A program made the translations under genes and the position numbers. Shown piece by piece: positions 863-38,300 of a stretch of 38,564 bases of DNA (its first letter is position 1; every line of letters starts with the position of its first letter). The DNA lies in NCBI GenBank assembly GCA_022711115.1, contig JAKLFP010000004.1, positions 242,625-281,188 of the forward strand, given 5' to 3'. Below the pieces are notes generated by a model. It saw nothing but the letters and a program-made list of their open reading frames with translations. It had not been told where the DNA came from and searched no databases. This DNA is from Candidatus Omnitrophota bacterium. Lineage in GTDB: Bacteria; Omnitrophota; Omnitrophia; Omnitrophales; Aquincolibacteriaceae.

Positions 863-895
863 AGACCCACTATAAAATAAAGGAGAGAAACTCGT

Positions 896-11300: not shown

Positions 11301-14300
11301 TCGGATAAAACCAAGCCGGCTGATGGGACAGTTGCTACGGTGATAGATGATAAAGTGACAGCTTCAAAAAGATTGGTTGAAAATATCCGGAAAAATAATC
11401 CAAACGTACGCATGACGGAGATTTTGGCTGAAAAACACAAGATCTCTATCAGGGAACCCTCGTTTCTTAAAGCCTATTTTGAAGTGTGGTATGCGTTCCG
11501 CCGTTCTTATCAGAAAATAGAGGATCCCGGATATAGCGTGCCTGAAACTTTCTCTCTCGATGGCGGCTCACCCCTTGTGACAGTGCCGTTGGAAACGACC
11601 TCTCCAGTTGTAGAGGCACTGCCGATTCCAGACATGCAAATTGAAGGTTATCGGCTTAAACTTGTTTTTAATGAAAGTGGCCTTGAATATTCAGTCATTC
11701 TTCCCATCTACGAAGGAGGAATTGAACCGGATGTCAATTATTACTATGCCGAACAGGCTATTGCAAACGGGCAATATGGCGTCTATGTGCTTGACACGGA
11801 TGCCAGCCGGCTTTCGGAGCTCAATTTAAGTTCAGGTTACACGGTGGTCTCTGATCCGCGGCTCACCCAGGCTACGGCACTTGTTGATAGTTTTCATTTT
11901 GGCTTCTCCGACGGTGATACGGAAGGGTTGAGCGCTTTCTTAGCGACGCATATGGATTCGAACGGGACCTTGACACTCACAAACGCTGAAAATGGAAACG
12001 TTGTTTTTCAGAATTCCGCCAGTGTATGGCTCAGTGCTTATAAACAAGCGATGGACGTGATCATCGATCCGCGGTCGGGAGCCGGGATACGCGACTTTTA
12101 TGGTCTCCCTGATAATGTGACCTATACGGACATTCTTATCGCACCTCCGACAACGCGTCCCATGACCGATCAAGAAAAGCGATTGGAAGAAGTGCGAAGT
12201 CTGATCGGGGCTTATGTCAGCGGCTACTACAGTCCGGATCCTAGAGTTCAGCAAAATTTCCGGCAAGTTTTCAGCAATAAATCCATAGCGCAGATTTTTG
12301 AATCCATGAGCAGAGTCTTACCCGAAGTCCAAAGAGCGTATACACGGCAGATGAATGTAAGCGGGAATACGGCAGATGCCGGTACCTTGGCTTATTTTAC
12401 CCAGTTGGATCTTGCCGGAGTCGATGTCCAGGAAGCCTTGATGGGAGCTGAATTTTATGCGGGGGGCAGGGTCGAGCTTCTTTTAGACAGTGATGTTTAT
12501 ACTGAAAAACACAAGCGGACCCATTTAACTGAGGCGGCGAAGGCACAGGTGGAGGCAACACGAGTGGAGGCATTAGAAGAAGCTGCGGGTTATGTCGCGG
12601 ATTCAAGTTTGCTTAAAAAAGAACTTGCGACGGTACAGAGACAGCAACAGATCCTGGAGGCCATGTGGAATGCAGCGGATGCGAAAAGGAAGACCGGCAG
12701 TATCAGCGATGCCAATCTTGTCGACCTTTGGGATGCATATCTAAAAAGCAAAGAGCGTACTCAGTCGGTCCAGGTCCAGCTGCAGGTGACCGAAAATAGG
12801 ATCCGCGCCCTGATGGGGACAAAGGGATTGGATTATCAATTTGAAATTCCTCCTGGAGAATTAACGCCGCAGGCTTTTCTTCAAGCGCTTATCGATTCCG
12901 GGATCGATAAAAAGGTCATTTACCGGATCGAAATGCAGTTAGAAAAGGCCTTGGCGGCCGAGGCCGGAAGGATCAACCGCGTACGGACCGCGACAGGATT
13001 AAGATTTAATTATGATGTGACCCGGGCTTTAGATATTAATACCATCGGTGACAAGTATTCGCTTGTGGCCGTTCTTTTTCAATTATCGGGAGATCTGGAT
13101 GAAAGGCTCCAGCTTTGGAAACGAGATCGTGCGGCTTGGGTCTATTCACTCCAAAGCCTGGCGAGTACGCTTCGCCAGGTTCAAATTGAAAAAGAGGCGA
13201 GCGATCAGCGCCTTCAATCGGCGGCAGATATTGTCGAACGTCAAAAGGAAGTCGTGGCCAAAATGCAACAGGGTGTGGCTGTTTATCAGGAGCAATATCA
13301 AAGCGACAATATCCTTGGGCCGTTCCAGCATATGCTCGAAGTGATGGATTCCGCGACGGAGGAAGAGGTTAACCTCGCTCGTTTCCAGGCTTCTTTCGAG
13401 CTCGAGCAGGTACACAATGTGACCCTAACGGATGCCATCGCTCGCGCTCAGAAGGTTGTGGAAGAAAATCGCAAGCGTTTCGAAAAGGCCGGGATCAAAT
13501 TGGAAGAACTCGGCACGAAAGAACCGGAAAAAATGCAGCAAACGATTCTTGTGCATAATGTCGCCGATGTTGTGCGGTCAGCGACACTTCCTGTGGACGA
13601 AATTATGGCTCAAGCCCGCGTCGGGGAACTCGAGCATGGCCGGGTGAAATTTCTCGGCTATAGCGTCGAACTGGGGTTGATGCTGCTGGCTTTTGGGAAT
13701 TCCCTGAATCTTACAGGGGGCGATCAATTTTATACCTTGGGAGACGGTGCGACGCAGCTGATTAATACTCAGACAGGCGAGACTAAAAAACTTACCGATG
13801 TCAGAAATATGCTGCAGCTTTCAGCCAATGTTCGTGCAACGTTGATTGATTGGGGCCGGGGATCCATCAAATTCCAAAAGATGTTGGCGGGAGAAAACGG
13901 GAAACTCATAGCGGAGGCAGGAAAAGTCGGTCTCACCTGGCAAGTTGCTTTTACGCTGCATGAACTCGCCCGTCTTAAAGTGCGTGAGGAGATCGCAGCC
14001 AAAAACCTGGCGGCAAGCCGTGAGGCATATGCTCTCAATCGTGAGGCTTTTAAGAATCGGCCGTATATCAAAGAACGGGAGACCGTGGTAAATGCCGAAG
14101 CTCAAGTGGCTCTCAATGAGAGAGAATATGCGCAGATCGAGGGCCTTATCGAACAGACCAAGAATAAACTCAAGTTGATTCTGCTGTTGCCCAAAGATCA
14201 GGACATCGAATTTGCCGATGATTTTTCTATGGCGAATCTTGAAGAGCAGTTTCCCTTTCTTAAGGCCTATCCCGATATCTTTGATTCCAAAAAGGAGTTT

Positions 14301-17300
14301 ACAGAGCACGGGCGTCAAAAAATGATGGCTGTGAGTAAAGCCTTGGAAGACATTCAGCAGCAGATGCAGAAAATGATCAAGGTCAAGGACGGAAAACCAA
14401 CGGGTCCTGCGGCGCTTTTAGAAGCCCAGGAACGTTTGAAAAATATCCAGGCGACCCTGGATCTTCTTATGAATGGGAAAATTCCTAGTGAAGAGCAAGA
14501 AGGCCAACTCACTATGATCGTTTTGAACTTGCTTGAGATCGACAGTGATCTTCAAGGGCCTCAGTTTTATCAATTGGGAGATGAATTCTTGCGGCTTCGG
14601 CTGATTCTCGGGGATCTTTCCGGAGCACACCAGCACCTTGTCATGATGCAATATCTCAACCACGCCTGGAACTATCTCTCCCAATCTCGCATCAAGCAGG
14701 TTCGTCAATTCAATGTGGCGATTTCCGGAAATGTGGGTTATGGAGCTGGTTCATGGAGCGGCGGCGTCTATCCCAGCCCCGATCCCGTCACCTATCCCAT
14801 TCGTTCGGCGTTGGCTCATGCCGGAAGTTGGCTGAAAGATCACGCGGGGGTCGTCGGCAAGGGTGGGGACGCGATCCTTGGGCTTGTGAATTCAGTGATA
14901 GGGGGAGATCCTCGTACCACTTGGGACCAAATGCAAAAACTCCAAAAGTTAGCGGAGCAGCAGCGTATTCAATTCGACTATTTTATCCGTTCCGAACGCG
15001 TGGAGCTTAAAAATCTGACGAAATACCATGATTATTATTCCCAGCGCATCGCACTTCTGCAAATAAAACGGGAGACGATCGATAGAGAACAACAGCATTC
15101 TTCCTGGTGGCGGATGTATCAAGCCGGTCTTTTTGGGTATTACAGTGCGGACGAAAACTTCGAATATTCCAGGGGGCGCATCGATCTTGAACTGAACGAG
15201 CTCCAATGGGCGCGGACGAAAGTCGAAGAGGAAATCCGTCGGCGGGGTTGGTCTACCGTTGAACATGCTAGAACAAGCGTGAACCAAAATGGTCTTAGCG
15301 CCAAGCTTCACGCGGATGTCCAGAGTGTCAAAACGGCGGTAGCTGCGGCAGCCCAAGCGGATCAGCAATTCAGTGTTACCGCCTATCAGGAAACCCGCAG
15401 GACGGCCGCGAACGCTATCGAAGTTGCGCTCCAGAGAAATCAGGCCGAGATGGATCGAGAAAGTGTCCGGTTGCTTAGCAGCAGTGTTTTGGATGTTTTG
15501 CCGGATGCGACCATCGGCAGCAATCTCAGCGTTGGTTTTTCAAACAGTTTTGATTATATCAAAAATCTCGAAGACTTTTTTGCGCCGACGCTGGTCTGGA
15601 CCGTCAATATCAATTTAATGGATTTGGCCGGACAGCTGCAGCGGCTGCGGCTATCCAAAGCGCGCGCTGAAGAGCAAGGCCTGCAGACTGAGTTTTACGC
15701 CCAACAGCACGAGGTGGCCAGAAAACTTGTGACTTACCTTCAAGCAAAAATGACGCTTGAGGATTATCGCGAAATGCAAAAGACCCGGGCGGGCCGGCTT
15801 CTTCTGAAAAGCCAGGCGCGTTTGCGTCACGCTGCGGATGTGACAGAGGGTGATGTGTTGATTGCAGAGCGGCTTGTGAACCAGGCGGAAGAAGATGAAA
15901 AAACAGCTCAGATTGAACTGGAGCTGGCGCAATCGGAATTCAATTCAAAATTCAATGTCCAGCTGGACCTGAAGAAACTCACCGACCAGCAGGGGCAAGA
16001 TTTGATGACTTTGATGAACAGTCTCATGGTTTCCATTCAGGAGAGCGGGGATGTTCGCCAGAGTCCGGAGCTTAAGGAAATTCGAGAACGTTTGGCAAAT
16101 CAGCGCGCGGTTCTGACGCGCACGTGGGGGGAAAAGGCCGCCATGTATCTTCAAGTCACTTTATCGGAAAACTATACCGGTCCTGTTGCCAAAATAGGGG
16201 GGAGTTGGGTGGTTTGGGGAAGCGGGAATATCGCGCGCATCCTTATGGCGAAAAAAGATATTGAAATGAGCAAGGTCCAAGAGGAAGCGCACCAAGTCGC
16301 TCAAATTCTGGAAAAACAAAATGTCATGGCGCAGGCCCAGCACTCCCAAAGAAAAATGATCATGGCGTTAGAGCGGGTGCAAATGCACCAAGCTATTCTG
16401 GAAGGGATTTTTGATAAAATGGACCGGGAAGCGATGGTCGCCGGAACCGCAGCGACTTTTCTGGATAATACCAAAAAAGCCTTTGATGCTTACAGCCAGG
16501 CGAAAGCGGAACTTGTGAAAGAATACTTCGATCTTGTTCAGTTGGCCGTGGATCTTGGCCTGCCTGAAGACACATTCCTGATGGGAGAGGACAGGGGCTC
16601 TGAAGGAGATTCGCGCGCGCCGCCGGTACTGTCTGAAGAATTTGAAAGATTACAGAAGCAGCCGTCTCCCATCCCTTACCAACCTCCCATTGAAATGGCT
16701 CCCGCAGTGCCCGAGGAACTGATTTCCTTTGAAAAAGTTCAAAATCCTGAGATCCAAAGCGAAGTAGATGCCCTCGTCAACCTTTTCAAGGTCGAGGACC
16801 AGGACGCTGGCAAAATCGAAAAGGCCAAGCAAGAGGCAGTTGATGCGGAAAAACAGTCTGGGGAAAAAATGGCCGTTGCGAAAAAGGCGGCCGCGGAACT
16901 GCAGAAAAACTTGGACGATAGCATTGAGGCCCTCAATGAAATTCAAACATTGCGCGCCGCCGTCGAGCAGGCAAAAACAGATGCCCAGAAATTACAAAAA
17001 GACCGTCTTGCTTTATTAAGGGAGTTGCGCGCTAAAGACGCGGTGGCAGAAGCGGCGCTGGCCAAGTCACAAAATGCCTTTCAGCGGCTATGGGGTTGGA
17101 TTTTTGGAGGGGAGGCAAGAAAGGCCGCTGATCTGAAGAAAGAAGAAAAATATTTGAAGGACGAGCAGGTAGTCCAACTGGATAAGCAGATCAAGGATTT
17201 AGAGGAAGGCATTAAAAAGAAAGAATTGGAAATCACCATCCTGGCCGAGAAATCGCAAAAACTCCAGTCGGAATTTCAAGTCAAACAAAAAGCAGCCGCT

Positions 17301-20300
17301 GACGCTCAGACGGCCGCGGATGCCGCGCGTCGTGATGCCAGTCAAAAAAAGGCTGCGGTGGATGCCATGATCGCGGATCACGAGAACTTCCTTCGGGCCA
17401 AAAATCTTCTCGCGAATATTTTTGAAGTCTACGCCGCCAAGCACAAGATCCCGGTAAAGCCTTGGGCGCAGACGCTGGTGGCGCTTTGGGCAGATGCCCA
17501 GCAAAAAGGGCTGTTGGCGAACGGCTATTTGGGGTCGCTGGTGGCAAAGGATGAAAAACTCGGGAACCTTTGGGCCAATATTGAAAAATCGGTTTCTTTG
17601 ACGGATAAGTCAAAAAAGCAGCTCGAGCTTATGGGGATTGATTTGAAGCTACTCCACTTCTTTGGACGATTTGCCTTAATGTCGCAGATGCTGGAGACCA
17701 ATCCCTATTTTATGGGACTTATGGAAAAAATGGGTAATCCGTCTCGAGAGCAGCTTGTCGCCAAGTGGTCGGAGGTCATGCGAGCGATGTGGGATGCCAA
17801 GAAGGCTGCGGAAGATTCCAGAAGTTGGTATGGGTGGCAGCATAGCATCAATGACTCCGGCGACTGGATCCTTTTTGTGTGGGCCTTGCGCTTTGTGGAA
17901 GAAAAAGAGAAAACGAAGAACCCCGCTCTCAAACTCGATGCGGCTTATATGAACGATCAGCGCCGTATTGACGAAGTCCATAATGCGGCGAAAAATTTTA
18001 CGCAAGACAATTTCGCATTTTTGGTCGAATTCCATTGGGTGGACCCCGAAGTAGTTCACCGTGGTGTGGAACTTGCGCGCCGGGCGTATGGTCTTGCGGT
18101 TATGGGGGATCAGGCTGCCTTTCCTAATGATATCGACAATAACCTTGATCAGGCCTCCGGGATTACGGCCTGGCTTGAAGACTCCTTCCGAAGGAATGTC
18201 TGGGGGGAAGTCGTTGGGATCGAGGAAAAGATAAAATCCCTAGAGACCCTACAGAAAACACGAGTTCTCACACCTGAAGAGCAGGATCAGTTGGAGAAAC
18301 TTCGTGCGCAGCATAAACTGGCCGTCCATCGAGTTCAAGATCAAGAACTTGCCCGCGCACAAAAGCTTCACGAGTTGGTGGAAGTCATCCGTAATCCTGA
18401 AGTTTTCGGCGAACCTCCGCTTGAACTCATGAATTCAAGGATCGTCCGAGCCTGGCAGGCTATCGATAAAAAATTCAGCGAAGTGCAAGCCCAGCTCGGG
18501 CGTACAGATTTATCTCCTGAAACCAGGGCAGCTCTTGAAAAGAACCTGGTTGAATTGGGGGTAGAGCGCACGGAACTGGAAAAGAGGAAGAACGCCGAGA
18601 TCGCCAAATTCAAGCAGGCTGGGCCTCTCGGAATGGCGATCGCGATTTTGCGGCAGACGGAAGGTTATCAGTTTGATGATAGAGAGGAGCGGGAAGAGTT
18701 TCTTAAGGAGAAGTCTCCGGAGGTGCGTTTTAACGACGTTGTCCGTTTGATCAGAGTCAGCGCGAATTTGTATCACGTGTTCAAGGAAAATGGCATCCGA
18801 AGCGATCTGAATCCCTGGGACTCCTCCGGCAAGAGCTCCGGATGGCTGATGGGCCGCGCCCAAGATGTTATCGAAGACTATGAGACATGGCAGGAAATGT
18901 TCGATCAAGATGGCAAAGTCAAGGATGTCGAAAAAGTCCGCGCGTTTTTCAACGAACCTGACGGAGATTATTCTCAAATCAAAAGGAATCCCCAGGTGAT
19001 CGGTTTTGCCCGGGAACTCCTGGGGATAGCGCCCCAGCTGCGTTTCGGCACCGAGCAGGAAGATTTTATAGATGCGGTAGCCTTTGGCTTTGCCAAGCAC
19101 AAGCTGTTGAATCCTCTGATTACCCAGGCTCAAATCGGCCGCTTGGCCCAGAGAATGAGAGAATTCTTGCAGGATCCCGTAAAGGTGCAGCAAGTCATCG
19201 GGCAGTCAGAACGCGAACTCCATGCCTTATACCCCGGAAAAGGAGCGGATGCGAAGTTCCAGTTTACACGCCGCACGGATATGGGCATTTTCATGAGTTT
19301 TCTCTTGAATGCCGCGGAAGAAGGTTATGGCCAATTTCTCTGGAAAGACGAACGTGTTCTGGAGATTCTTGAGAAGGATCCGCAAACTGTGTCGGCAGTC
19401 ATCGACCTAGCCAACCGCGTGCGTGCCGCGAGAGGGATTGACGAACGCATCACGCGCGAAAGCATCAGCCAGAGACGTTTTCACCGCGGTGAGATCATGG
19501 GCTATCTTTTTAACCTCGTTTCTGAGAACCCCGAAAGATTTCTGAATAAGCTCAACGACGCCCTTGGGTTGTTAAAAGACAACAGCACCTATGAAGGGAA
19601 AACTCCTCTGCAATGGGCTGTGGCACTTGCGAATCAGCGTGAAGAGGCGATATCCGGCCGCCAAGGCCGTTTTCAACCTGTCTTCCAGCCTGTCAGTGAG
19701 GAAACATTCCTCACAAACAAGATCCAGTGGAATCGTGTTTTTGCAGAATTGGTCGGGATGGCGGACAAAGAAGGTGTCAAAAAATGGGTGGACATAAGCC
19801 GTGTCACGCTGGAGCGCCTGAGTGATCCGCAAAAGCGAAGAGCAGGCATGGAACATGCCCAAAAATATTTCGATGCTCTCTATGGCGCAGGCGTTTATCA
19901 CCTCGTAAACGAAAATGTTTTTAACGAAAGCCTGGAGGAGAATGAAGATTTTAAAACGGACCGGATCCTTCGCGGCCAGGTACTGGGGTGGTTTGGGGCT
20001 TCCGCGGAAGAGGGGCAGCGTGATTCAAGCTGGATCAGCTGGCTCCAGAAAAGCGATGAAGCCGTCAGACGTCTAGAAGATCCGCAGCAGAGGGCCGTAC
20101 TTTTAGATGAAGCCCAGAGGCTTTACACGGCGATTAATCCTAACTTGAATATGAGTTTTTCCGGCGACAATCTGGTGGTCAGCCCGCACGTTCAGGCATT
20201 GGCAATCAATTGGCTGATGACCCGCATCGACGGCGGTTGGGACCAGACCGGTAATCTCGCGAACCGGCTTATTTATTTGATCAAAGACCGGCCGACCCTC

Positions 20301-23300
20301 CTTAAATTGCTCGACGAAAGCAAAACAATCGAACAATTACTGGTCGAAGGTTCCCAGCGGGATTTCAGTGAAAGCGCTTTTCGGCAGGATCTCGGAAAAG
20401 TCCAGGGCCGGGTTTTGAGCTGGATGGTATCACGGCTTGTCGACGGTTTTGAATTGACGGAAGGGCTGGCTGATCGCCTGAAATCCTTCATGTCCAAGAA
20501 AGAAAACCGTGACAATCTTTTGTGGGTGGGGGAACGCGTTAAATTCCTGCAGCAGTTTGACGGCAATATCAGTGAGATTAATCCCGCGAATTTTGCCTCG
20601 CCGCTGGACCTTGATGACCGGGAGGATCGCGGTATCGTTCTCGGTTCTCTGATGAACCAGCTATTGGACCGCGGTGAAGAGCAGGCAGCCAGAGATTTCG
20701 AACAAGCGCGCACCCTTTTGGTAAGCAGGTCCTTCCTCGATTATCTGGCCCCGGATTTGGAAGCGGATAGACTCCTGCTTCAAGATACGGCCATGAATCG
20801 CAAGGAGAAGGCTTTGCGTTTGAGAATGCCCGGGCAAATCGGATACTGGATGGGCAAAGGATCTGACGAGTTGAGGAAAGGGTTGAAGCCGGATGATGTG
20901 CTGGGCTATCGTGAAAATTTCTTCAGTGCGGTCAATGAGAACCGTCAAAATACGGATTATCAGGCCATCGCGGCTTCCAGGCGCACCAACGATGAGAAAC
21001 TGCGCCAGGAGCAGCAAGTGAATGAAAAGCTCTTGTCGGCCAGAGATCGCAATGAGCGTAAAAGAATCATGGCAGAGTATTCCGTGTTAGCGACGGCCGG
21101 CGGGATGGAAACTTCCTGGGCCAGGACGCGTCTGCGGTTTTCTAATCACCTGAAAGACCTCATGGAACAGGACGTCCAGGCAGAGACGAAAAAGGCAATG
21201 GACGCATTTTTTAAATATTTGCGTGAAATACGTCAGGAACCGATTCTGCAGGATTATTTCAAAGAGCTCGATCAAAAAGATCCAAGCTATGCGGATTCGA
21301 TCGCGGGATCTCTGGCGTTGCAGCGCCACGCAGGCGGATTATCGGATCAAGAGTACAAGAAGATAGCGGTGTATATCGCGCAGTCCGCGAAAGACCTGAA
21401 GGCAACGATGGGAGGCGATGTGATGCCGCCGAGCATTGTGATGGATTTCGCGAGGAAAATGCTGTTTGATCCCGGTATCGATTATGCCAAGTACCTTAAA
21501 ACGCGGCATCATGAATATGAAAAACTGGCTTGGAACGTGCCGTGGCGGACTCACCGCGTGATCAAGGAATTGTATCAGAGTCTGATGGGCCGGGAACTTG
21601 TCGAAGTCGGCGCGGAAGATGCTTATCAGCTCATGCTGGAAGCGGGCGCTGATCAGGAGTTAAGCCGTCTGGCCGGCCGTTTCATCGATATGAACGGAAA
21701 GCTTTCCATTGATTCCGTGGAGCTTAAAGGAGTCGTTGAGGATATCGAATCCCGGATCGCGCAGATTGAAAACCTGGAACAGCGCGCCAAAATCCGTGAA
21801 CAGTTCAGGCACATACGGCTCCACCGTGAGGATAAAAACATCCTGCTTTCCTTTGTGCAAATGCGCAAACACGCTGCTCAAAATGGCATGACACTGCCGA
21901 GGATCGTGGAAGAATTTATCCAAACGAATCCCCAGTATTTGAGGATCAAGGAACGCGCGGATTATGAAGACAGGGTTGCCTTAGATTTTAAAGAAAAGAG
22001 AATCATGCAGGCCGCGCAGTTGACCGAAGATCATCTGCCCCAAGCGGCGGAATCCCAGAGGAAAGTTCTTTTGTGGTCATCAATCATCGTTGTTTCCGTT
22101 TTCAGCTTTGCGATTATCGTTCTTTCCAACATATCAAAGATCCTAGGGGCGCGTGCCAGACCTGCGTTCAAAGCCCTTCTAGAGAGATTCCAAGAATTAA
22201 TAAAACTTATCCCAAAACTTGATCCGTCCAAGCCGGAAGAGAATAAAAGACTGGTTGCGTTGAACAAGGAACAGAAAAGTGTTCGGACAGCGATTAATGC
22301 ATCTCTCAATGATAGTTTTAATGATTGGAAGCGTCTTAGCAGCGAACTTACCAAACTTAGAAAAGAGGCTGGGACAGAACCGTCGGATGAATTCACAAAA
22401 AAGATAGAAGAGTTGGACAAAAAAGTGGCTGGCGCAGAGCAGAACCTGGCGCAGATGTTTAAGGATTTAGAATCTACGGAAGCTGGTTTTATTGCTCAAA
22501 AAGTGAAGGCTCTGGATCTTGAAAAGCTCAAAGCCTTTGGGCTTCTCTCGGGGGCCGGTGCCATTTTCTTGGCGTCAATGACAGCAATTATTCTTGGTGT
22601 GTTTTCTGTTGTCTCTTTTCCGATAATTTTGCTTGTTGGATTAGCTGAGCTATTGCCGTTTGTTGGCGTTGCAGTTTTCAAATTGGCGGCTAATCTACGG
22701 GGTTTGACTGATTTTCAAAATTATCTGAGGAAGAAATACTCCATTGGTACAGAAGGCGGAATTTCCGGTGAAGGTCCTGGCGTTGGGCGTCCGAGCGAGC
22801 CTTCCGCGCGATCCGAATTGCGTGGTGAAAGCGCACCGATTTTCTTGCCATCCTTGAAAACGATTGAGAAACGGCTTGCGAAAGATCCTAACTATGCAAC
22901 GGAAGAGAATTTTGAACCGTTTAGAAAAGTACTTGCAGGGGAAGACGAAAAGTTTCGAAAGATGCATCAGACGATCGAACGTGTTACCGAGGGACCTACT
23001 AACAAGATTTCACGTGTTGCCAATTGGCTTGGGAATGCGGCCTTTTTCTTTGGTGGTATATATGTTTTATCTCTGGCTGTAGGGGCCTGTTTATTTTTGT
23101 TAGTCATTCTTCCAATAGAGTTAGTATCTCTTAATGGACATGAAGTGCCGGCGTGGGTCGGTACCTGGCTTGGATTCTGGTGGGAGGGATTGATAGCGTT
23201 TTTTATTGGAATAATGAATGAAGGGAATGACCATCCATTTTTAAAATTACCTGCCCATGTTGCTACGAAACTTGGTGCTATTTTTAGCTCTTTTTATTAT

Positions 23301-26300
23301 AAACGTCTGCTGAAAGCAATAAAAGCTTTGGACCTTTTCGGTGAACGCAATTCTGATTTTTACAATAAAAAGCATGTGCATTTGGCAATGACTCATGCTT
23401 CTCTTATTAATGAAAATGATCTTTTCGTATTTTTGAACAAAGCTCTCCAGTGGGGATTTTCCGGGAAAACATTAAAAGAGAGTTTTGAAATTTTTAAGCG
23501 TTTCCAGTCCATTTTTCGTACTCGTACAGATGCTTTTGACTTGTTTGCTCAGGCATCTAGACGCTTAAATGCTGGTGAAAAGTGGGAAGAGGTCAAGGTT
23601 TTTCTGGTAGAAAGTCTAAGGAAAATTAAATGGGTGCCTGTGGAAATATCAGAAATCAATGGGATCGTTGAGGCTATAAGGATAAATCGCGGCAATGCCT
23701 CCGAAGAAAATTTAGCGGTGATCTTGTCCACACTTGGAGACCGCAGGGCTCGCGCATTTACGCTCGAAGCACTGCCTGCTTTTGTTGAGGCAAATAAAGC
23801 AGCATTTTCAGAGGCGAATTTGCTAAAAGTTTTGGATCATGCGAGCCGTTCATCTGGCGATTATAAAAATGTGGCGCTCGATGTGCTTCCTTTCTTTATC
23901 CAGGCTAATAAAAGCGCTTTTTCTGAATCGAATTTCAAAAAGATTTTAGTCAAGCTTAGTAATAAGGATTATGAATTAACAGTAGCAGCCGTTGAAGTCC
24001 TTCCTTTGTTTATTCAGGCGAATGCGGCTTATGCAACAGAATCTAATTTGTCCAAGGTTTTAGACGCATGTTTGCATGATGAGACAGGGACAGTAGCTCA
24101 TTATGCTGCTGAATCGCTTCCAGCATTTATTCAAGCGAACAAAGAAGCCTTTTCGAAAACTGGGTTTTCTAAGGTTCTGAATGCTCTCCGAGATTCTGAT
24201 GAGGCACAGCGTAGAATCGCGCTTAAAGTTCTTCCTGTTTTTATCCAAGCGGATTATAGCTATGCAACAGAAACGATTCTTAAAGAAGTTTTAGACATTC
24301 AGCGCGAACTTGGTTTTAGATTCCGAGATGAGGAGCTCAGACTCAGCGTGTTGCCGTTTTTTATTCAAGCGAACAAAAATGCTTTTTCAGAGGCTCTGTT
24401 TTCGGAGGTGAAAATGTATTTCTTTGCGAATACCCCTCGTGAAGATAACAGTGAAGTAGAGCAATTTGCCGCACGGCAGCGTCAGTCATATGCGCTAAAG
24501 GTATTAACTTATTTTGTGCAAGCGGATGAACGTTTTGCGCCAAGGGTGGCGGCTTTGCAGCGTTCTGATTCTTCTGACATTGAGGAACAAGCTAGTCCTG
24601 ATGCTGAAGAACAAACTAATATAGAACATTTTAGTGATCAAGATCATGCGCAAAGGGTTTTTCTAGAGATCTGGAAATTAATAGAGACGCAACGAAAAGC
24701 TGCGGAATTAGAAAATGAAAGAAGAGATCGACTGCTTGCAGAATTTGAGGATGCGATTAAGGCAGGTGATTGGGTTAGGGACGATATGTCTGGTTATGCT
24801 GATCTTGACGCCACAAAAGCCGCATGGAATTATGACGAGATTTCCACGCATGTAGAATATTCCTCTAGATTGGACCAAGAACGCATGACTCAAGCATTTA
24901 GATTTTTGAATCAAGCCCGTTCTTGGCATTTTTCGGAATTACAATTCAAGGATTTTATGGAATTTCTAGGTAGGTTTGCCAGCAATTACTCGGAGAGATA
25001 TGCTGATGCTATGGATCTGCTGGATCAAATTTCGATGCAAATTATGAAGGAAAAGTTAAGTGATGCAGATGCTGTTTCATTGGCGAGAACAAGATTTGCG
25101 CAGCTTTTCGAGCAGGCAAAAGCGCACAAAGCGCCAGGAACTCAAGGTTCGGATACAGGGGAGGCGCGGTCTGAATTGCGTGGAAAGAAGTTGGAGGAAA
25201 TGCAGGCTGGCGCGAAGAAGATTTTTGATAATGCCCTATGGCCGTGGCTTAAGCCTATAAAATTTATCTGGTTACCCATTGTGAAGCCCGCGGTCTTTTT
25301 GGGGTCCGCGTTCTTTTTCCTTGGGAAGCAGATCACTACCGGATTTTTCACGCCCTCAGAATTATCATGGAAAGAGCGGTTGTACGCCTATGCCGGTATC
25401 GGGATCATGCTGTTTGGCGTGGTCGTGCTTGCGCACTCCGTGCTTGCCATGGCGGCGACAGTGGCGGGTGCGGTTTCCGCTTATCAGGTTCTGCTTGCGC
25501 TCAATCCATTGCTTTGGCACAACGCGCTTGGCGCGGCTATTTTGGGAGCCGGTGTCGCCGTTTGGTTGAAAGGGGTTTTTGGAAAAGGTAAGCAGGATAT
25601 TGAAGATATCTATAATAATCCGTTTTATAAAAAAGATGTCCAAAAGATTATTCCTCGGTTTAATGCATTATGGGCGAAGGCGTATAAGGTTCCCGAGAAG
25701 ATTAATGGTATTGATGTGACAAAATCTGGGGAAGGACAAGACCTTTCGCCCGAGCATTTTCTTTATATGAAAGAATTTATCAAACGCAATACTACGGCAG
25801 ACTGGAAAACACTTGTGTATTTCGGATTTCTTGCCGGTGTAGTCGCTTTTTACGCCGCAAATTTTATCGCTATTACGGACTGGAGTATTACGAATTTATT
25901 CTTTACTCTTCCCAAGGTCATTCTCTATCCGCTTCTTGTTGTGAACATTGTCCGCATGGGGATTTTATTCACACTCGGGCTTTTCCGGCGTGAAACGCAT
26001 GTGCGGATCGATCCCAAAGTCCTTCTTGAAGGAGGATTGGGAGAGGATCAGAAGACAGCTATTATTTATCCTGCGAAAAGTGAAAACACGGCATCTTCCT
26101 GGGAAAGTCTGCTGAATCTTTTCCGCTCATTTACAGGTGAAAGTATTGATGATATCAATGTTGAGGAACTAGAGAAAGAATTGGTGCATTCGGAGGTTGG
26201 AGAGAGGGCCGCGATCTACATAAAATGGTTGAAAGATGCGCTTGGTGAGAAGGCGGGACAAATCAAGGGGGTTGACCACAATCATAACCTTTACGCGGTC

Positions 26301-29300
26301 CACGTTCAGATCGGTTCGAACATCGATATAGCAGAATTCGAAGCTTCTCTTGTGAATGGCATGCGCGAGTTTCTTGATCCGGCGTGGAGAAGTCAATGGG
26401 GTTTTGTGCGGGCCTCGGATTCAGCGCCGCGTGCCAAAACAGGTGTTTACCATGACCTGATGGAAGTATTTACTTTGGGGAATGACAGGCCTGTGGCTTA
26501 TCAGGAGGGGACCTCCAAATTCAAAATGGATCATGATCTAAAGCTGGAGGATTTTAAGACGAAGGCATTATTGCAAAACAGGACGAGCGATCAGATTATT
26601 TTAGATGTCCTGAAAATGGATGTGGACGCATTGAAAGATCTATCGCTGAAACAATTAATTGACGCGCTTAACAGTGTTCTGGAAATGCCAGATTTCTACC
26701 AGAGGGTCAAAGCTCAAATAGCGCAGCAGATTGAGGATGTAAGCAAGGAAATCGAAAAGGAAGCTTTGGAGAAGAAGAAAGAAATCGAAACGGAAGCTTT
26801 GAAAAAGAAGGAAGAAATCGAAACGGATAAAAAAATAACACAGGCCGACCAGACAAAAAAACTCAAAAAACTTCAGGACGATACAGCCCAAAAGCTCAAA
26901 AATCTTCAGGACGATACAGCCAAAAAGCTCAAGGGCCTTGATAAACAGAAAGCAGTACTGGAAGGTTTGCAGGCTGAGGCAGATAAGGCTTCACCACGGA
27001 ATAAGCTCGAAATTATTAAGTTGAACATGGCTTGTCTCAAGATGATATACGTGAGTGAAATAGGCGAGTTCCCTGGGTTGAGAACAACTTCAGCTATTTT
27101 TAAAATTGATCCAGAAGGATACCGTTTTGATGCGCCGTTTGCGGACAACAAGGAGAATCCAAAAGCCAAAGATATCACAGTTCAGTCCAAGGTGTCCACG
27201 GCGAGACTTCGGAAAGTAGTCGAAGAAAATAAGTATGTTGTTCGGGATCCTGAAACGGGTGAGGTTATTAAAAATACAAAAGCGCTTCTTGCTATGGAAG
27301 ATAAAGATTTGCGGGATTTGTTGTATAAAAACATTAAAGAGCGTGTGACTCATTTCGCAACTGTTGCCAAGAAGAGCCAGGGAGGGGATTACGGTGAGAT
27401 GCTGCTCCAAATAGGTAAAAGTCCGCAGCCGGGTGCTTTTACGTTACTTTCGGATCCGGACAACGCATGGATGCCGTTGGATTTGGATATCTTGAAACGT
27501 TATCTCATGGAATTTATATACGCCTATGAGGGAAAAACTCCGAGTGTCTTGATCGCGCGTCTTTTTGGTCGCAGAGCACCTCCTGATCTGGACGAATACA
27601 AAAAACTGCTCGCCCAGGTCATTGAAATGCAAAGCCGCGGTGAAAAATATTACCCCGGCGGAAATACTCTCCTCAATATAGCCCTTTTAGCGGCCAATCC
27701 AGAACACGCCATTGTGGAAGCCGCACTTGAGATTGGAAATCCTGAAGACACGCTTGATAACTCACTCGAACAGCAGGCCCGCCGTGAACTCTCCTCAGGC
27801 TCAGATACCGAAGCCGCGATCCTTGGACGCTGGGGGTTTTTTGGAAAAGGCGGCATTCAGAACTATTCCTATATCATCCACGTGCTTTTCAAAATGAAGA
27901 TCTTTTTGGGGAATCTGAGCCATGACACGATGGAAGCACCTTGGTTGCGGCCGCTTTATGTGAGTTTTCTTAAGCAAAGTGAGGGCGGTATTCTGAACCG
28001 TCTCGCGCTCTATTTCAAACAGAGCCGCTGGGCACTCGGAGAATTTGCGAACACCTTCAAAGAGCATGAATGGTTCAAGGATACTGTCACATTCTACTGG
28101 AAGACCCTGCTTCCATACTTAAAGGATGTGACGGGAGATATAGCGGATCAGAAGAATATTGTAAAAGCCGTTGAAGGCGCTATCGGGCTTTCTCCGGAGC
28201 AGATTTCCGGACCCAATCAGGTTTCTTTAGAGGAGCTTAAAGCTGCGCTTGAAAAAAGTAAAAAATTTAAGATTACAAAAAAAATTCCGGATCCGACGAA
28301 TCCCGGGAAACAAAAAGACAAGGAAATCCATACGAGTAAAAGTCTTCTTGCGCGAATTGAAAGAAATCGCAGTGAACTTCGCGCTGAAGGTCAGACCGCT
28401 GAAAAAGAAGCACCGCTGACTGAGGAGGAACTCAGGAAGATTCTATTTGACGAAGTGTCCAAACGGGTCAAAGCGGAAATTGACAAGTCCAATAAAGCGC
28501 CTCTTGGAAAACCGCTAGTTACTTCGGAGCATAAACATCGCGAGAAAATGAGTCTGGGTGCGTTCTGGCTTGTGATCCAGCCGTTTATCGGGCCGTTAGT
28601 CTCTTTCGGATTTTTCGCATATCTTCTTTTAGAGTGGGGTTCCTCTGCGTGGCCGGGCGGCGTGGAAATGGGTGTTCCAAGCCTTGCTGCTTTGTCCATG
28701 CTTATTACCGTTGGGCTTTTAATCACAACGGGCAAAATATTTGATGTCTTCAGGCATTTGATCCTTTCGGCTCGCAATCTGGCGAGGGCTGTGATGTCCA
28801 GCGGGCATAATCGACGCGAATGGCTTGGTTTTGCATGGAGCGATCTGAAAGAGGCTGGGCGTGGTGTGTTGCGGGCGCCCAAGGAATTGCGGTGGAGTAC
28901 GGGGTTGCTTCTCCAAAATGTTATTCTGGAGATCCGCCTCCAGTGGTCTACGCTGAGCAAACTGTTCCTGGAAGCCAAAGGCGTGTGGATTCCGCAGGCT
29001 TTTGTGGAGTCCATGCTTGTTTCCGCGACGTTGATCCAATACCTTTATCTCTTCTGGCCGGCCGTGATGTTCTATTTTGCAATCCAGTTGTTTGTGGTCG
29101 CGGTATTTCCGATCGGCGGCATGGTTTATCTGGCCATGCAGCTTGCGACTTATACCATTTTCGCTTCGCTAGCTGCTGCGAGTGTTTTTTCTTATCTCAG
29201 CGGCCGCAAAAGCTTCGCGGGATGGCTCAATTTTGCCCGCGAATGGCGCGATGGAAAAGCGCCTTCCTGGTTTGGTGCGCGCGGGGAGAAACCAAAGGGC

Positions 29301-32300
29301 TGGTGGAGCGCATTCCGTAATGATGAAGGTTATGCAAAAGATTACCAGCAGGCTTGGAACGGACCTAAAGAACTTTTCAAGACCATGAGCGGAACCATCG
29401 GAACGTGGGTCTATACTTTTCCCTATAGTCGCGTTCTGATCGGTCTTGGCATCTTGCTCCCAACAGTGATTGCTTCAGTTCTAGGCTTTACCTCCATGCT
29501 CACTTTCGGCTTTGTTTTCTGGAATGTTGTCCTTGGGTTATCGTTGATCTTTCTGCCGGTTCTTGTTCGAACACTTGAGCATATTGATTACAGGATTTAT
29601 ACCCACAAGGGTATTGGGAAGACTTTCTGGGGTGTGGTTCGCGGGTTGTTTCTCGGCTTGATCCTCATGAGTGCGGCAATTCCGTCGCCGGAAATCCATA
29701 CACCATTTAAAGTGGGATACCATATTGAGGAAATACAAGCCATTGGCAGTGCGTTTTTCACCACTGTTGTCAGGTCGGTCAATAATACTTTCGCCAACGG
29801 AGGAATCGGCCGTCTCATCTCCGCGCAACTTTGGAATCCCTCGAAACCAGAATTGACCGAAGCGGAAAAGATGCAAGTCAAAAAGTATGAGCTTTTGGTG
29901 GGCGAAGCCTCCGAAACTTTAGACCGGATTGACTTTGAGGATGAGATTTCCGCGCGGAAGGACAGACTGGCAGTTGAGAATTTCAACAAATCGCAGGGTC
30001 GTGTGACATTGGAAGTCAATACAGCAGCCCGGGAAGTGATCTATGTTCCCGATTTTCTGAAGGCTTTCCGGAGCGCGGTTGAAAAATCAGGGATCTCAAC
30101 AAACGCTCACGTACCGGTCGTGATCGATTATTCGCGGGAAAAGTTCCAGTCACGCTGGGAAGGGAGCAAGTTCCATATCAACGCGGCAGAGATTGAAAGG
30201 ATCCCGACGGAAACCGAGTGGCAGAACATTCTCAGTACCCGGGATCAGGCGCCTAAGATTCCGGCGCGTTCGGAAATGCGTTCTTTTGAGGAAAGGGTCA
30301 AGCTGACCGGTCGGATGACCTTTGTCCTGACGGGACTTTCGCGGTCCGGCAAAAGCACAGCCGGCCGTTTGGGGGCCATGCGGGTCGGCGGTGTGGCTTT
30401 CTCTGCGGGGGAGATCTTCAGGGCCGCGACTTATGTGGCTTTGGCTGAAAAAATTCCGTTGGAAAATCCCGATAGTGCGGCATTGCTTGCCGAGGTGTTG
30501 CAGAAAAAATTATCCTGGCGTATCGGCGCTAATGATGTCGAATTCTTATATGAAAGGAAGCCTCTTAAAACCGAATTGGAGTCGGTTGAGGTCGTTCAGA
30601 ATCTCCGCAAAGTGAGTCCGTTTATCGCGAAAAGTTACGCGGATCACATCTTCTTCCAAATTGTCCGGGCGATCGAGCGTTCCGGAAAACACCTTTTTCT
30701 CGATTCCAAACGTGGAATTTCCGAGGCGATTGCCGCTCACACCGATATTGAAGTGCATTTTACAGCGAGCGAAGAGGTACGTGCGCAGCGTGCCTTTGAT
30801 GCCGCCATCCGATTCGATAGTTTGAAATCTCTTTATGAAAAATTGCGCGCACCTTCCGACGAGTCTTGGGAATCGCTTCTTCATCGGGTAGGCGCGAAAG
30901 GCGTGAAGCAAAGAGTGTATGAAATGGTTTTGGCTGCAAACAACGCCCGGGATAAGGCAGACGACCAGTTCCGAAAAAAAATGGTTCAACTGCCTCGCCG
31001 GATCGAAATCGACACAAGTCAATTAGGACATAGGGAAGTTCAGAGTGTGTTGAATGGCAAGCTCGCGGAACTTATGAGCCTGTTAGAGTCGGACTCCGAG
31101 GATAAGGAATTTCAGGCTGAAATTCAGGAGATCCGGCAGCGGGATTTTTCGGGTGTCCCGGCCTTTGATGTCTTAACGGAGACGATCACACAGAATCCTG
31201 ACAAGATTGTGAACCTGGTGCTCGACGCCCTCGAGGCTCCGGAGGGATTGGTTCCCGAGGCGACCACAACACCGGATCCCTTGCTGATTTCGCGGCAGGA
31301 ATTTTCGGACCGGGCCTTAGCACTTCTCGGTTTTGAAGGCACTCCGGAACAACGTCAGGCTCTATCGCGACAACTTGAAAATGTCTGGGACGGATTCCTG
31401 GACAAGCAGATCGCATTATCCCGGAAGATAGTGGAAGATGTTGAGCGCAAGGCCCTGGAAGCTTCGAAGACTTTCATTCAATTTCAGAGCAAAAATACAA
31501 AAGAGTATAACGAGATCATCGAAAAATACCAGTTTGCGGCGAACCTTTGTGAGCGTTTGATTGCTGCCAGCCAATTTGATTCTGCCTTTATAACCTTGCA
31601 TCAAAGGATCTTGCAGGAGCTCGAGCAGTTTTACGCAAACAGTTCCATCCCTGATGGCCGATCGCATTTTCTGGTGCTTGTGCCGACGACGAACCGCCCA
31701 TCGTCTCTGAAAAAATTCTTCCAGAGCGCCCTGGACGAACGCCAGGCCTACCATTATTCCCGGGTGACGTATGTCATCATCGAAAACAGTGAATTTGAAT
31801 ATGATCGTGAAGAAAATGAGCAAACGATCGCGGCATTCCGGAAGGCCGGACTCAAGATTGATTATTGGGGCCTCGAACGTCAGCAAGTACTCATCCGATC
31901 CATGAAAGAAAAACACCCTGAGCTGTTCCTGGAAGAATTTCTTCAATCCAGCACCCCACGCGATATTACGAATGTCAGATTTATGTCTTTCAAAACCGTT
32001 TATGGCAGCCGCGAGATGACCCGGTTTGCCGCGCAGGAATTAATTGCCGGAATGCCCAAGAACACGCTTATCTGGCAAGTGGACGATGACCAGATTTTTG
32101 CGGCTACTTCGCTAAATAAAAAAGGCGGTGTGATAGAAACGAAAGCCTTTAGCACCTTTCATCGCGCATTGCAATTATTGAATAGTACTCAGGCAGATGT
32201 TGTGCTAGGTGCCGTGGATTGGGACCCCGCGGTTCCGCCCAGTTCTTTTATCTATGGCCAAATGGTGGATCTGGTTCATTTCTTTGAACGGGCGAAGGAT

Positions 32301-35300
32301 CGCCAACCAGGGGACGATGCGATGGAGGGATTGCCTGACATAAGAGATTATGCCCATCCGGAATCCAATATTGATTTCAACGGACTCAGAGGAGACCGTG
32401 ACGAGATTGCCGCTCATCCGAGGCCCGTGCTTGCCGAGCCGGGTGAAAAATTGGGCGATCTTTTTAACAGGTATTTACTTGTCATTGATCATATTTTTAC
32501 TGGAACGCCGTTGACGCGGCCGCTACTCTACCACCCCATGACGGCTCATTATGATACCCAGACTCAGGAAATGATCCCTTTTACTATGGATAATCCTTAT
32601 TTTTCAGGAGGGAACACGCTTTATCGCAATCATCATTTTTTAACAGACATTCCTTACTTCCTTTCTGCGAAGCGGCGGGGAGATTCGCTTTTTACTTATG
32701 CGCTTCGACAATTCGGTGCTTCCATTGTCTTGACTCCGCTTCCGTTTACGCACCACCGGGGAAGAGAATTTCGGGAGAATGTTCTTTTTGAAAGAGGTAA
32801 AAAGGTTGATTGGGGGGAAGAATTGATTGGTGAGTTTGAAGGGTATGTGATCCAGAAAATCTATGCCTTTTTATTCAATCGTTATCAAGTGACCGACCCC
32901 GAAGGATTGGCGCGCGCGCTTCAGGAAGCCTCAGTGCCCGAACTCGTCGAGCTTTACAAGAAACTCCTCAAAGAGCGGTGGAATGTTTATGAGAAGGCTA
33001 TGATCGGCGTCCGGAAAATGCTCGAAGAAATCAACGCCAAAGGTTATTTGGAGGATACAAAGTATTGGTGGAATCAGGATGGGGCCGTTTTTCAGGGAAG
33101 CATCGATCATTTAAAATGGTTCCTTAAGCAGGTGGCCGGCAATTTCACTCTTGAATCAGCGGCAGTCTCATCACTGGCGAAAAAAGTACATCATCCTGAT
33201 CCCGCGGAGATCGAACGTAAGGTCAGAGAGCTTCTGAACTTCCGGGTGAGCATGGAACACTGGAAGGCCATCATGGACGCCAGAAGAGAAGTGCTGGCTG
33301 CGAAGCAGGATCTTCTGACGTTGCTGGGTGCCAGATCGGAAATGAGGGAAGTGCCGGAATTTATCTTAAAACACGCACTCCGTGACGCGGCAGAAAAATT
33401 TCCCCAGTATATGCCGGTCTGGAGCGTACTTAAGGAAATTTATGGTATGTCTGGGCAAGAACAAATGAAGCGAATGGAACACCTTCAGGATGTCAGAATG
33501 TTGGCAGAAGCGAACGAGCATCTCAAGGCATTGATGATCGAGCAGTTCAATAGTTATTTTGGAAAAGAATTTTTTGAATCGAGCCGCGAAAAGACCTCGG
33601 CCGTTTCCGTCTATGAGATCCAGTCATTTTTCGATTATCTTGCGGGAGTGAATCCTGCCAGCGTCATCCCTATTTCCGTTGCTGTCGAAGGGGAGACGGG
33701 CGAGCTTCTTTCCAAAGTGATGATACCGATAGCCGAAGAATGGATCAAACGGTATCCGGACATGCTTTACCAATATTTGGCCGCACGCGTTTATAACCGT
33801 ATTCATTTAAAATTCCTAACGGCGCGAAGTGCTATTATCCGAACGCAGGATCCTGATTTGAGTGACCGACTCGTCACGCAAATAACGAAAGCTTATGAAC
33901 AATCAGACCTTTCCCTCAGGACGAAAAGAGATTCCAGAAATCCTGACGAACGCTATGAAATTATTGCCGGGCATGATGGTTTCGCGGAAGAACAACGCGA
34001 GGTGGAAACGGCCTTATCTTCGGTTTCGGTGCAGCCTCGTGCGAATCAGGAAGGAATTTTTGTCGGGCTCGATATCGGTGGGAATACGATCAAAGTGGTC
34101 ATCGTGGAGGGCGGGAGTATCAAATATAAAGAGACGGTCCCGTCTGTTGCCGTGCCGGTCGATGTGGGTGAATTGGATGTCTACGAAGATGCCGTTTTCG
34201 CGAAGATTAAAAAGTTACTACAGCAAATTCAAAAACAAGTCCTTCAAACCGAAAAAACGGCGCGGCCTATTTTGGGTGTCGGGATCACTTCCAAAGGGTA
34301 TGTCGATGAAAATGGCAATGCGTCCCGTTTATTTCCGACATTATCACAGCGTATTGAGGGCGAATTAAATGTGCCCGTAGTGTTGCGCAACGACAGTAAG
34401 TCCCATGCAGCCTGGCTGGTGGGTGCTAAGGGGGTTGCCGATGCCGTATCCTTGGCCCTGGGGACCCATGTAGGGTCTGAATTCATATGGGATCACCAGT
34501 TATCCGAAGATCAACCGGAACTCGCGTTTCTGGTGTATGGATTAGGTGCCAAATTAAAACGTGTCACGGATTCAGCTTCTCTGGAGTTTCTGGTATCGCA
34601 AGCCAAACAGCAGTCCATACATAAGGGGAAAGGTGAAATCACAGGTGTCGATATTGCCCGCGCTCTGAAAGCCGGAGACGAGCGAACCGACAAAATGATT
34701 CTGGAATATTCAGACGCGATTGCGGAATTAATTCGGGGAACGGTCTATGAAACGGGTTTTGATCATTTTTATCTTTCGGGCGGACTAGCTTCGGAAAATC
34801 TTGGAAAGCGCATTCTGGAAGAGGTCCTGAGGGCGCTTAAGAAGATGCAACCTCGTCTGGATGTGAAAGTGGAGTTAATCCAGCCTCGTTATGTGGAGCC
34901 TCAGTTTGCCGCGGCGGTAGGGGTGGCCATGGTTGCGGCGGGGGCTGTCATGGCAATGAAACGCAGTGAAGTCCGCATGCAGCAAAGCACGCTTGAAGAT
35001 CTGGTGGCGCGGGGTGCTTCGCCTAATGAAATTGAAGATGCGATTCAACAATATCACCGGGAGATCCCGGAAACGGCGATCGCCGCGTTCGGGAATGCCC
35101 TGAGTCATGCCAAACAATTAGGGATCTATGAGCTTTGGAAGGAAGCACGGAAAGTGAGCGCAGCGTTCCTTTTGACGGATATCGATGAGCTTGGGCGGCC
35201 GGAAACAGCCTTTGCCCATGTGGATAAAGTGGTGCGTTTCGCGGATGAGCTTGAAAAACACGCGAAAGGATCTGTTTCTTCGGATCAGCTCTATGCGTTC

Positions 35301-38300
35301 ATGATGGAGCGTAAACGAAAGCCGGATGTTGTTCTGGATCGAGAAAAAGTTATGCGAGTTACTCAGCTTTACGGCTCTCTTCGGCGTTCTCCGAGGCTTC
35401 TGGCCTTGACGTATCTTGGGATCATTTTTCATGACTTTGGCAAGGTGTTGAATGCCGGCGACGATTCTTTTGCGAGCGAGCGGCTTACGAGGGATTTCTT
35501 GAAACGCCTTGTGGCTTCGGGACACATGACGGAAGCTGAAGCGACTTTTGTCGTCGCGCTTACCCGGCTGCACACGGACATCGGTTCGTTCAATTACTAC
35601 CAATCGTCGCCTCGCATCATTGAAACTTATATCCACCAGAACAATATCGCTCCCTCAACTTTCCTCGAAGCTTCGATGATCCTTTACCTTGCCGATAACG
35701 GGGGAGCTTATGCCGGAACGATTGATAACGATACTTTAGATAATGTCCTGTGGCTCTCCAAGCCCGACAAACTGAGTGCGTTGGCCCAATATCCCTTCGG
35801 GCTGTATGATTTTTACCTGCGTTATGTTGTTCAGCATGGCCTGATCAATCTTTCGAAATATGATCCTAAGAGTTTCAACGTGGCCGAGGCTTATAAGGAT
35901 TCTCAAGGGATCCTGGATGAATGGGAAGCCGTCAAAGCGGTTGGAGATGAAGCATCCTTTTTACGATTCCAGGATGTCTTTCTGACCTATTTCCCGAGGA
36001 TCCGCAAAGTTGCGGTAAGCCCGTCTTCGGGAACATTGGTCAAATATCTCTACCTGATGACCAAGATCTCGGAGTGGCTTGAAAAACAACCCGGCGGGGA
36101 ATGGCCTCAAAATATCATCTGGCCGACAAGAAACGTGAAGCCGGATGATGCCCTTGAGTTTTTTAAAGCGGTGTTCGGAAATGTTTCGATCCGGGACATC
36201 AAACAACTGACGGAAGCGCCGGACATGAGCCTTGAGAAGATTAAGCAAAACTTCCATATCGCCATGAAAAAATCGCGTTCCGGCATTATCGTGGAGTTCC
36301 CGCCCCCGGGGTTTTCCGCTGCCCGTTCTGAACTTAGAACTGAGAACCTTTCCAGACTTGTGACCGCGATGGCCAAGCGAGACGTGCTGCCCGAGAAGGT
36401 CGGTGGGATCGTGATCTTCGGAAGTTCGAGCAAGAGAATCACTCCCGAGGCGGCAAGATTTTATAAAGAGGGAAAAGCCCCGTGGATCCTGGTTTCTGGG
36501 CGTTTTGGCAAAACAGTGCCTGAAGTTGAGGGGCAGAATTACGGCCGCATGCCTGATGGATCCATGGTCCAACCCGAAGCGCTTGTGTTCAAGAAAGAAC
36601 TGATGGATCTTGGCGTTCCGGAAGAGGCGATCCTTGTCGAGGACCGGTCGCAGGATATGACGCAAAACGCGGAAAAAACCGTGGCGTTGCTTCAGACTCG
36701 TGGTTTGAATCCTGAAACCGTCATCTTGATGCATGGCCCGTACCATGTGTTGCGAGGAGCGCAGGAATTCCGTCGTGCGTTGCAAAAGGCGGGTATGACG
36801 ACACGGCTTTATGAATATGCGGGTTATGTGCCGGACGTAGCAACAGCATCTGAAGCGGAACGCGCCAAAATTGAAAAAACGGCGCTTGCGCAGGTTCAAA
36901 AACTCAATTCGGATGTGCCGGAAATCCCGGAACTTGCTGGCATCAATGGCCTTCGTGATCAACTGATTCCTGTCCGTGCCGAGGTTCGCGAACAGAAGCA
37001 ATATACGATTTCAGCGGATTCACCGGATTTTCGCGACCAGTTCGTGCCAGGGATCCGTGAAGGGTATGTTGCCTTTGCGCAGATCAAACCGGATGGCGTT
37101 GTTTATAAAGAGAAGATAGTTGCCTTGTTTAAAGCGGCTGGTTTTGATGTGTATGTCGGTCCGCTCAAAAAGATGACAAGTGAGATGGTTTCTGAATTCT
37201 ACGCGGTTCACAAGGATAAAGATTTTTTCAAGGATGGCCGCTTGAACGAGTACATGACCCAGGAACCTGGCGTGATTCCTATCTTTTTGGTTTCCGAAAC
37301 GCCAGATGCCATTCAAAAATTTCGCGCTGTGGTTCCATCGATTCGAGAACAGCTGGAAACGACGTCGAAACTCAAGAATCGCATCCATGGTTCGGACTCG
37401 ATTGAAAATGCGCTTATGGAAACCGAGATCATGTTCCGGCGCAGCGAGGTGCGTACTCCTACTTTGGCAGATATACGTGCCGTGATGGAACCTTATTTGG
37501 CTGAAACGAATCCGGATCGCCAAAAGGCCATGCTCGCGGACATGGTAGCTCATTACGGATTATCCGAAGCCGATGCGGGCATGCTTGAAACAATTCATGA
37601 CCACGCGGCCCTCGATGAAGCTGTCAGGAGCGGGCAATTAAACATGCGCGTGATGGTGGATCTGGCAGAGCCCTCCATGATTGAACCTGTCTCCCGTAAT
37701 CTTTCAGGGCATGAAGAACAGCATTTCCCGGGTGTCAAAATCGAGGAAATCATGAGTTATGGCAGAGGGGTCAATGGTCGTCCCGAAGGCGTCAAGCGGG
37801 TGGGCAACACGACGGACATTCTGGCCATGGTGGATAAGATCACGAAGAAATATCCGCCGCTTACGGCCGAAGAAATTCGAAACGGGAAGAAACGTGTTTG
37901 GGTGTTGTCGCTGGATACGGGGGTAGGGACTCGCGCGGGATTATTCACGGTGGCTAGCGGCGGAGTAAAAGGAGCGATTTTAATGCTGGGACACCAGTTG
38001 AGTTCCCAGGTCGTGGACCAGTCGAAAGTATTCGCGAAGACATTGCCGGCAGGGGAATGGTTTATCGTGGCCTCCTCGGATAATATCGCACTTGCCAAGG
38101 CGCCGGAATACAAAGAAGGCCGCGGCTTATTTCTTTATGCGCCGAACGAACAAGTTTTTGGAGATTTGAACAAGGAGGGTATTCCCGGTGAATTCCCCTT
38201 ATCGACTGATCGTCTGAAGTATTTGATGGGATTGGGTCATGCGGCGGTGAACCCTGATGCGTTGGTGGAAGAATTCCGGGAGAAACCCAAGCCTTACCAG

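Follow-up and report, generated by a model that had tools for sequence, protein, structure and literature searches.

Junction peptides at the module seams of giant Omnitrophota proteins: candidate processed polyproteins

Giant open reading frames (ORFs) of more than 20 kb have been described in Omnitrophota/Velamenicoccia (Seymour et al. 2023, PMC10066038). They contain transmembrane segments and few annotated domains, were termed poorly conserved, and were proposed to act in adhesion or predation; a linker motif, cleavage or a polyprotein is not mentioned in that study. The window analysed here is the whole stretch of 38,564 nucleotides from a Candidatus Omnitrophota bacterium (assembly GCA_022711115.1, contig JAKLFP010000004.1; G000:C20:242625-281188), and the contig stops at its last base. 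It carries an open-ended ORF of 33.3 kb, which resembles the published giants, as does a laminin_G_3 domain on the giant with which the contig begins. Unlike the giants as published, those examined here share an N-terminal domain, a C-terminal ending, housekeeping-type enzymes and short junction peptides. The junction peptide of the source genome, RSE[VLMIA]R, is proposed to mark the seams of a polyprotein family, which on balance is probably cut into free modules by a lineage-specific endoprotease.

Viral and prohormone polyproteins also comprise several units per chain, separated by a short recurrent border peptide, with units bearing their own targeting signals. The giants differ from them in being bacterial, in numbering 10-20 or more per genome with tens of units each, in their lineage-specific peptides, and in that their cleavage is inferred. 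2A/StopGo peptides likewise stand between fused proteins, but the motif of the giants lacks D[VI]ExNPGP and its upstream context is unconserved. Rickettsia palindromic elements (RPEs) and similar in-ORF insertions place a repeated peptide within many proteins, whereas the present motif has five residues, no flanking repeat and a single frame, and is confined to giants and their module seams. A literature search, which did not cover preprints and many journals, found no description of the motif or of such bacterial polyproteins.

Abundance and position of the motif

The source genome (2.5 Mb, 95.8% complete) was analysed as stretches. The ORF at 5253-38564 contains, in frame, each of the twelve copies of R[SA]E[ILMV]R that a first-pass annotation of the window had counted in one protein, and the annotation's estimate of 0.1-0.2 copies by chance agrees with the 0.12 given by composition. 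A DNA pattern for the peptide yields 241 matches in the genome compared with 97 for the reversed control, and these lie in further giant ORFs of 7042, 8375, 9879, 3728, 10288 and 11701 amino acids. The pattern R[SA]E[ILMVAS]R occurs at 161 sites over 12 giant ORFs (71,233 amino acids), at a median spacing of 272 amino acids, and at three sites in 250 non-giant ORFs (90,900 amino acids) of two contigs that also bear giants. Among the 4-residue patterns enriched de novo in giants, RSE.R ranks first, with 139 occurrences observed and 1.34 expected. Chance or composition is thus ruled out as the origin of the motif.

Position 4 is occupied, from commonest to rarest, by V, L, M, I, A and S. One-step variants such as xSEVR and RSExx occur at about background level, which indicates that the peptide is under purifying selection. 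The consensus motif DNA is found 78 times in frame and never in the other frames. The 161 copies in the source genome comprise 147 distinct 15-mers, with wobble positions free to vary. The first-pass view that the peptide, and not the DNA, is conserved holds insofar as the codons differ, but a lineage-specific codon signature is present as well. A mobile DNA element, RPE-like or of the miniature inverted-repeat transposable element type, is ruled out by the single frame, the missing flanking repeat, the diversity of the 15-mers and the restriction to giants.

A role of the motif as a module-boundary signal, suggested in the first pass, is strongly supported. No copy lies inside the 31 Pfam domains placed in the giants, compared with 13 expected, which rules out that the motif is part of a common domain family; 14 of the 31 domains start within 40 amino acids after a motif (3.4 expected). 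The motif is also enriched in related giants, and its placement relative to domain borders is non-random, so that none of the three refuting conditions named in the first pass applies. HPr and MraZ modules each begin 4 amino acids past RSEVR and an acyl carrier protein (ACP) 10 amino acids past RSEMR, while a response regulator has one motif 14 amino acids before it and another 6 after it. BLAST homology between giants of the source genome spans a motif in three cases, compared with 22.8 expected, and homologous tracts often terminate at the motif. In the congeneric genomes G019 and G022, a module of ~515 amino acids, 60% identical, stands in different contexts; its homology begins at RSE[LM]R and ends at RSE[MV]R. 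Both ends of this moved or inserted module coincide exactly with the motif. Breakpoints of module gain or loss at the seams are shown in the alignments of this one congeneric pair and, beyond it, statistically. The earlier suggestion of a remnant of module shuffling is therefore partly right, as such breakpoints fall on the motif.

In the window, the proposal that copies stand immediately before new modules applies to the recognisable ones, namely cytidylate kinase (CMK; 18 amino acids), DUF218 (24 amino acids) and nucleoside diphosphate kinase (NDK; 29 amino acids); most others are unannotated. Three motif positions given previously (7263, 7356 and 37440) are exact and the other nine were 3 nt too low, e.g., 7062 for 7065. 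The features are as follows.

5253..38564, +: giant ORF, at least 11,104 amino acids (33.3 kb), open at the contig end
5283..5378, +: N-terminal hydrophobic signal/anchor helix, from sequence; helix 11-42 in the first model
5430..6812, +: conserved N-terminal domain common to all giants (H, E, R and GGFH invariant), tentatively a distant ChaN/EreA/Tiki-like fold (alignments; AF2 pLDDT 93; weak EreC/ChaN matches)
7065..7079, +: junction peptide RSEIR, first seam past the N-terminal domain
7263..7277, +: junction peptide RAEIR
7356..7370, +: junction peptide RAELR
22809..22823, +: junction peptide RSELR
25167..25181, +: junction peptide RSELR
28368..28382, +: junction peptide RSELR
30267..30281, +: junction peptide RSEMR, ahead of cytidylate kinase
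30333..30800, +: CMK module, P-loop intact (Pfam PF02224, 1.1e-9)
33333..33347, +: junction peptide RSEMR
34062..34865, +: ROK (sugar kinase) module (Pfam PF00480, 1.6e-5)
34962..34976, +: junction peptide RSEVR, 33 amino acids past ROK
36324..36338, +: junction peptide RSELR, ahead of DUF218
36408..36800, +: DUF218 module (Pfam PF02698, 5.6e-13)
36975..36989, +: junction peptide RAEVR, ahead of NDK
37074..37451, +: NDK module, HGSDS kept (Pfam PF00334, 2.5e-15; PDB matches, 2.8e-10)
37440..37454, +: junction peptide RSEVR, at the extreme end of NDK

Residues 713-5858 of the window protein contain no copy of R[SA]E[ILMV]R, and NDK is the sole match of the window body to the PDB by phmmer. Upstream of the giant, at 30-4506, a thiolase, an AMP-binding enzyme and an alpha/beta hydrolase are encoded, apparently of ordinary metabolism.

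Some seams are followed by export signals. A hydrophobic segment lies closely downstream of RSExR at 19 of 339 sites (8.5 expected) and upstream at four, so that the notion of copies preceding membrane modules is reduced to a modest excess. Six strict internal Tat-type signals were found, four of which begin 1-10 amino acids past a junction peptide (0.38 expected); three of these belong to the RSExR type and one to the SLG type described below, and one carries a lipobox. Seams with export signals are a minority of the sites.

Common architecture and dialects of related lineages

As judged from their sequences, the giants open with an N-terminal domain that bears a signal anchor and continue as a variable series of modules, each about the size of an ordinary protein and joined by short, disorder-like, peptide-bearing linkers; the final module terminates in -[AS]A. 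A homologous N-terminal region of ~600 amino acids opens all of them, with a signal-anchor-like helix followed by a domain in which DAH, EG, R and GGFH are invariant, and the first motif copy stands directly past this region. The domain occurs in 39 of 39 relatives examined, where a single genome may carry as many as 58 copies; across the phylum, 68 of 116 genomes have it. Its AF2 model, built from 54 sequences, reaches a pLDDT of 93, compared with 69 for an earlier model. EreC (E=0.42, probability 0.44) and ChaN are the best Foldseek matches, although weak (E 0.4-0.9); 4 of the 54 domains match ChaN/Tiki PF04187 (best 9.5e-4), and a profile of the domain gave no credible match in the PDB. On the basis of the model, the domain may tentatively be placed in the ChaN/EreA/Tiki superfamily. 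It shares invariant His, Glu, Arg and GGxH with the ChaN/EreA/Tiki-TraB proteins, but differs from them in a large helical insertion and in the weakness of the matches. In one congeneric giant (G012_C45:148616-155539), an in-frame TAG is reported within the match to the N-terminal domain and may reflect a pseudogene, an error or recoding.

At the C-terminus, -AA or -SA is found in 38 of the 49 complete giants and -TA in two, and 41 have A as the final residue; 40 control ORFs have no such excess. The ending is independent of the type of the last module (e.g., L032:13555 and L051:3181) and resembles tails read by C-terminal-specific proteases. In family f7 (G036_C16c, G029 and G033) and in G039, the giant family numbers ~40-58 paralogues in each genome and makes up a notable share of its 2-3 Mb. 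ORF lengths that span masked runs are not reliable, and those of 35,113 (G038) and 24,618 (G029) amino acids are artefacts of 72-kb masked N runs and were not counted.

The recognisable modules include ordinary, whole enzymes; most others in the giants have no annotation. The ORF of 11,701 amino acids contains glutamate dehydrogenase (GDH), HEAT repeats, malic enzyme, UDPGP (UDP-sugar pyrophosphorylase-like), GalE, an inositol-phosphatase (IMPase) domain, a methyltransferase, ACP and MraZ. In the giant-borne enzyme modules that were inspected, active-site residues are retained and the starts are native-like. Modules such as GDH, GalE and MraZ are cytosolic proteins that here lie downstream of an N-terminal signal anchor. 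The only NDK and RpiA of the source genome lie in giants, and one scan of its contigs gave only two distant NDK-like matches. With scores of 47-73 bits, the NDKs in giants are divergent. NDK is missing altogether from most f1 genomes; in other families ndk is a normal gene that stands alone, and both kinds coexist in G038. Giant-borne NDK and RpiA were not used as proof of essential released enzymes, since most f1 genomes lack NDK and the giant copies are divergent. Contigs C2 and C7 (at their ends) and C20 (at its start) of the source genome break within near-identical laminin_G_3-type regions of giants, suggesting that assembly probably halts at repeated LamG modules.

Related lineages place different peptides at equivalent seams. 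The giants of family f7 have the same N-terminal domain as those of the source genome and no RSExR; their top pattern is A.SLG (111 observed, 2.8 expected; G036). The corresponding patterns are G.SLG in f5 (60 compared with 0.7; G027), A.SLG in f4 (14 compared with 0.7) and AGFG(A) in f2 (11 compared with 0.5; G024). G061, from another class, uses [AG]ARLA, with ARLA found 47 times (1.2 expected) and in six of six giants. These peptides, or dialects, occupy equivalent places, directly past the N-terminal domain and at the borders between modules. From one genome to another, homologous modules are sparse. Residues 6374-6732 of the source genome's giant at C20:12430, edged by RSExR, match residues 4748-5121 of a G035 giant, edged by SLG, and the malic-enzyme segments of C22 and G027 are likewise homologous modules edged by different dialects. 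No junction peptide was found by a 4-letter-type pattern search in G039, G119 and G087. In the G027 giants (L156-L159), translated repeats such as PSFAKATEGRRQSS and RVGAPVSEFASERVGPI adjoin the G.SLG seams, as if short DNA repeats build up in the linkers.

When the dialect is mapped on a tree built from 54 N-terminal domains, 14 changes are needed compared with a minimum of two, and well-supported branches force at least 10. As mapped on this tree, the dialect goes with the genome and not with the paralogue, which points to a factor acting in trans or to genome-wide homogenisation.

Competing explanations of the junction peptide

Under the favoured reading of the giants as processed polyproteins, a lineage-specific endoprotease would read the junction peptide and cut the chain into modules. 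Cytosolic enzymes would be freed in the cell, and modules headed by a Tat or Sec signal peptide would become exportable. Gain and loss of modules occur through breaks at the seams, which would keep the peptide at every seam. Processing, the best of the three first-pass readings although inferred, is ranked first because a cut directly ahead of an export signal in mid-chain would let that signal work as usual, and because an anchored chain has to release its cytosolic enzymes. The use of one peptide throughout the giants of a genome would likewise be explained by a reader specific to the lineage. A simple Arg-specific protease is probably not the full explanation, since homologous giants in other families have Arg-free junction peptides.

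Several points weigh against processing. Cleavage was not observed and no protease was identified, and an uncut chain would be exported whole by its N-terminal signal anchor. Some f1 giants (G010 and G005) hold few motif copies, and two of the six internal Tat-like signals have no junction peptide nearby. Many modules are unannotated, and the divergence of the giant NDKs and the lack of NDK in most f1 genomes also count here. In addition, the codon signature suggests a DNA-level contribution beyond cleavage; the seam is perhaps also copied or used as DNA, as a place of module joining. Codon choice at the motif is non-random beyond amino-acid and neighbour context and is lineage-specific: CGY-TCS-GAR-NYR-MGR in the source genome, AGT for Ser in f7 (G036/G029) and GCG-CGG in G061. 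A signature is present in every dialect checked, and the bases flanking the motif are not conserved.

This signature, together with breakpoints on the motif at both ends of a module, favours an alternative in which the 15-nt DNA is the place of recombination or template switching. The peptide would then be the in-frame footprint of a lineage-specific joint, needing no function at the protein level. As a full account this is unlikely. The motif keeps strictly to one frame (78:0), though a second frame would be stop-free, and variants that would alter the peptide are almost absent, in contrast to the free variation at wobble positions; moreover, the motif is found in giants only, and a passive scar would decay. 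Cleavage and DNA-level joining at the seams can both be true.

A docking or sorting tag is less probable still. Here, a partner such as a chaperone, secretion factor or scaffold would bind the peptide and handle the uncut giant module by module, in line with its regular recurrence and exposure in linkers, and a lineage-specific peptide could fit a lineage-specific partner. Signal peptides at module starts are, however, hardly sensible in an uncut chain, and no partner is known.

The motif flanks are disorder-like (z = 8.7), as fits seams between modules. With Pro, Ser, Ala and Gly close by, they would also suit a neutral flexible linker with a sequence that has simply become uniform within a genome. 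Such a linker is very improbable, since five specific residues are retained over family-level divergence with near-misses at background, and the linkers carry charged RSExR in some lineages and uncharged SLG in others.

Translation restarting at codon 4 of the motif, or ribosome skipping, so that separate proteins arise from one ORF, can practically be dismissed: ATG, GTG or TTG stands there in 91 of the 161 sites of the source genome, but 64 fourth codons are not NTG at all, the Leu codons of G015/G011 show no start-codon bias, the bases upstream hold no ribosome-binding site, the SLG, GFG and ARLA dialects have no comparable codon, there is no 2A (DxExNPGP) signature, and the codon tables rule out a Shine-Dalgarno sequence or start codon at the motif.

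Significance of the seams

Giant ORFs of uncultured bacteria are usually interpreted as single, very large surface proteins or as weapons of predation. For many of them, the seams suggest strings of separable ordinary proteins, which would alter genome annotation, the searching of proteomic data and the view of what giants are for. Four peptides stand in the homologous giants of related lineages, so that the co-evolution of a cleavage (or joining) signal with its reader can be tested cleanly. The junction peptides also provide new polyprotein linkers for use in expression. More tentatively, and with somewhat less than even confidence, protease-processed polyproteins of 2,000-24,000 amino acids may form much of the protein inventory in some lineages of one phylum, with peptide (RSExR, [AG]xSLG, AGFG or [AG]ARLA) and protease co-evolving and new modules captured at the seams. 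If true, this would amount to a bacterial polyprotein economy with "dialects".

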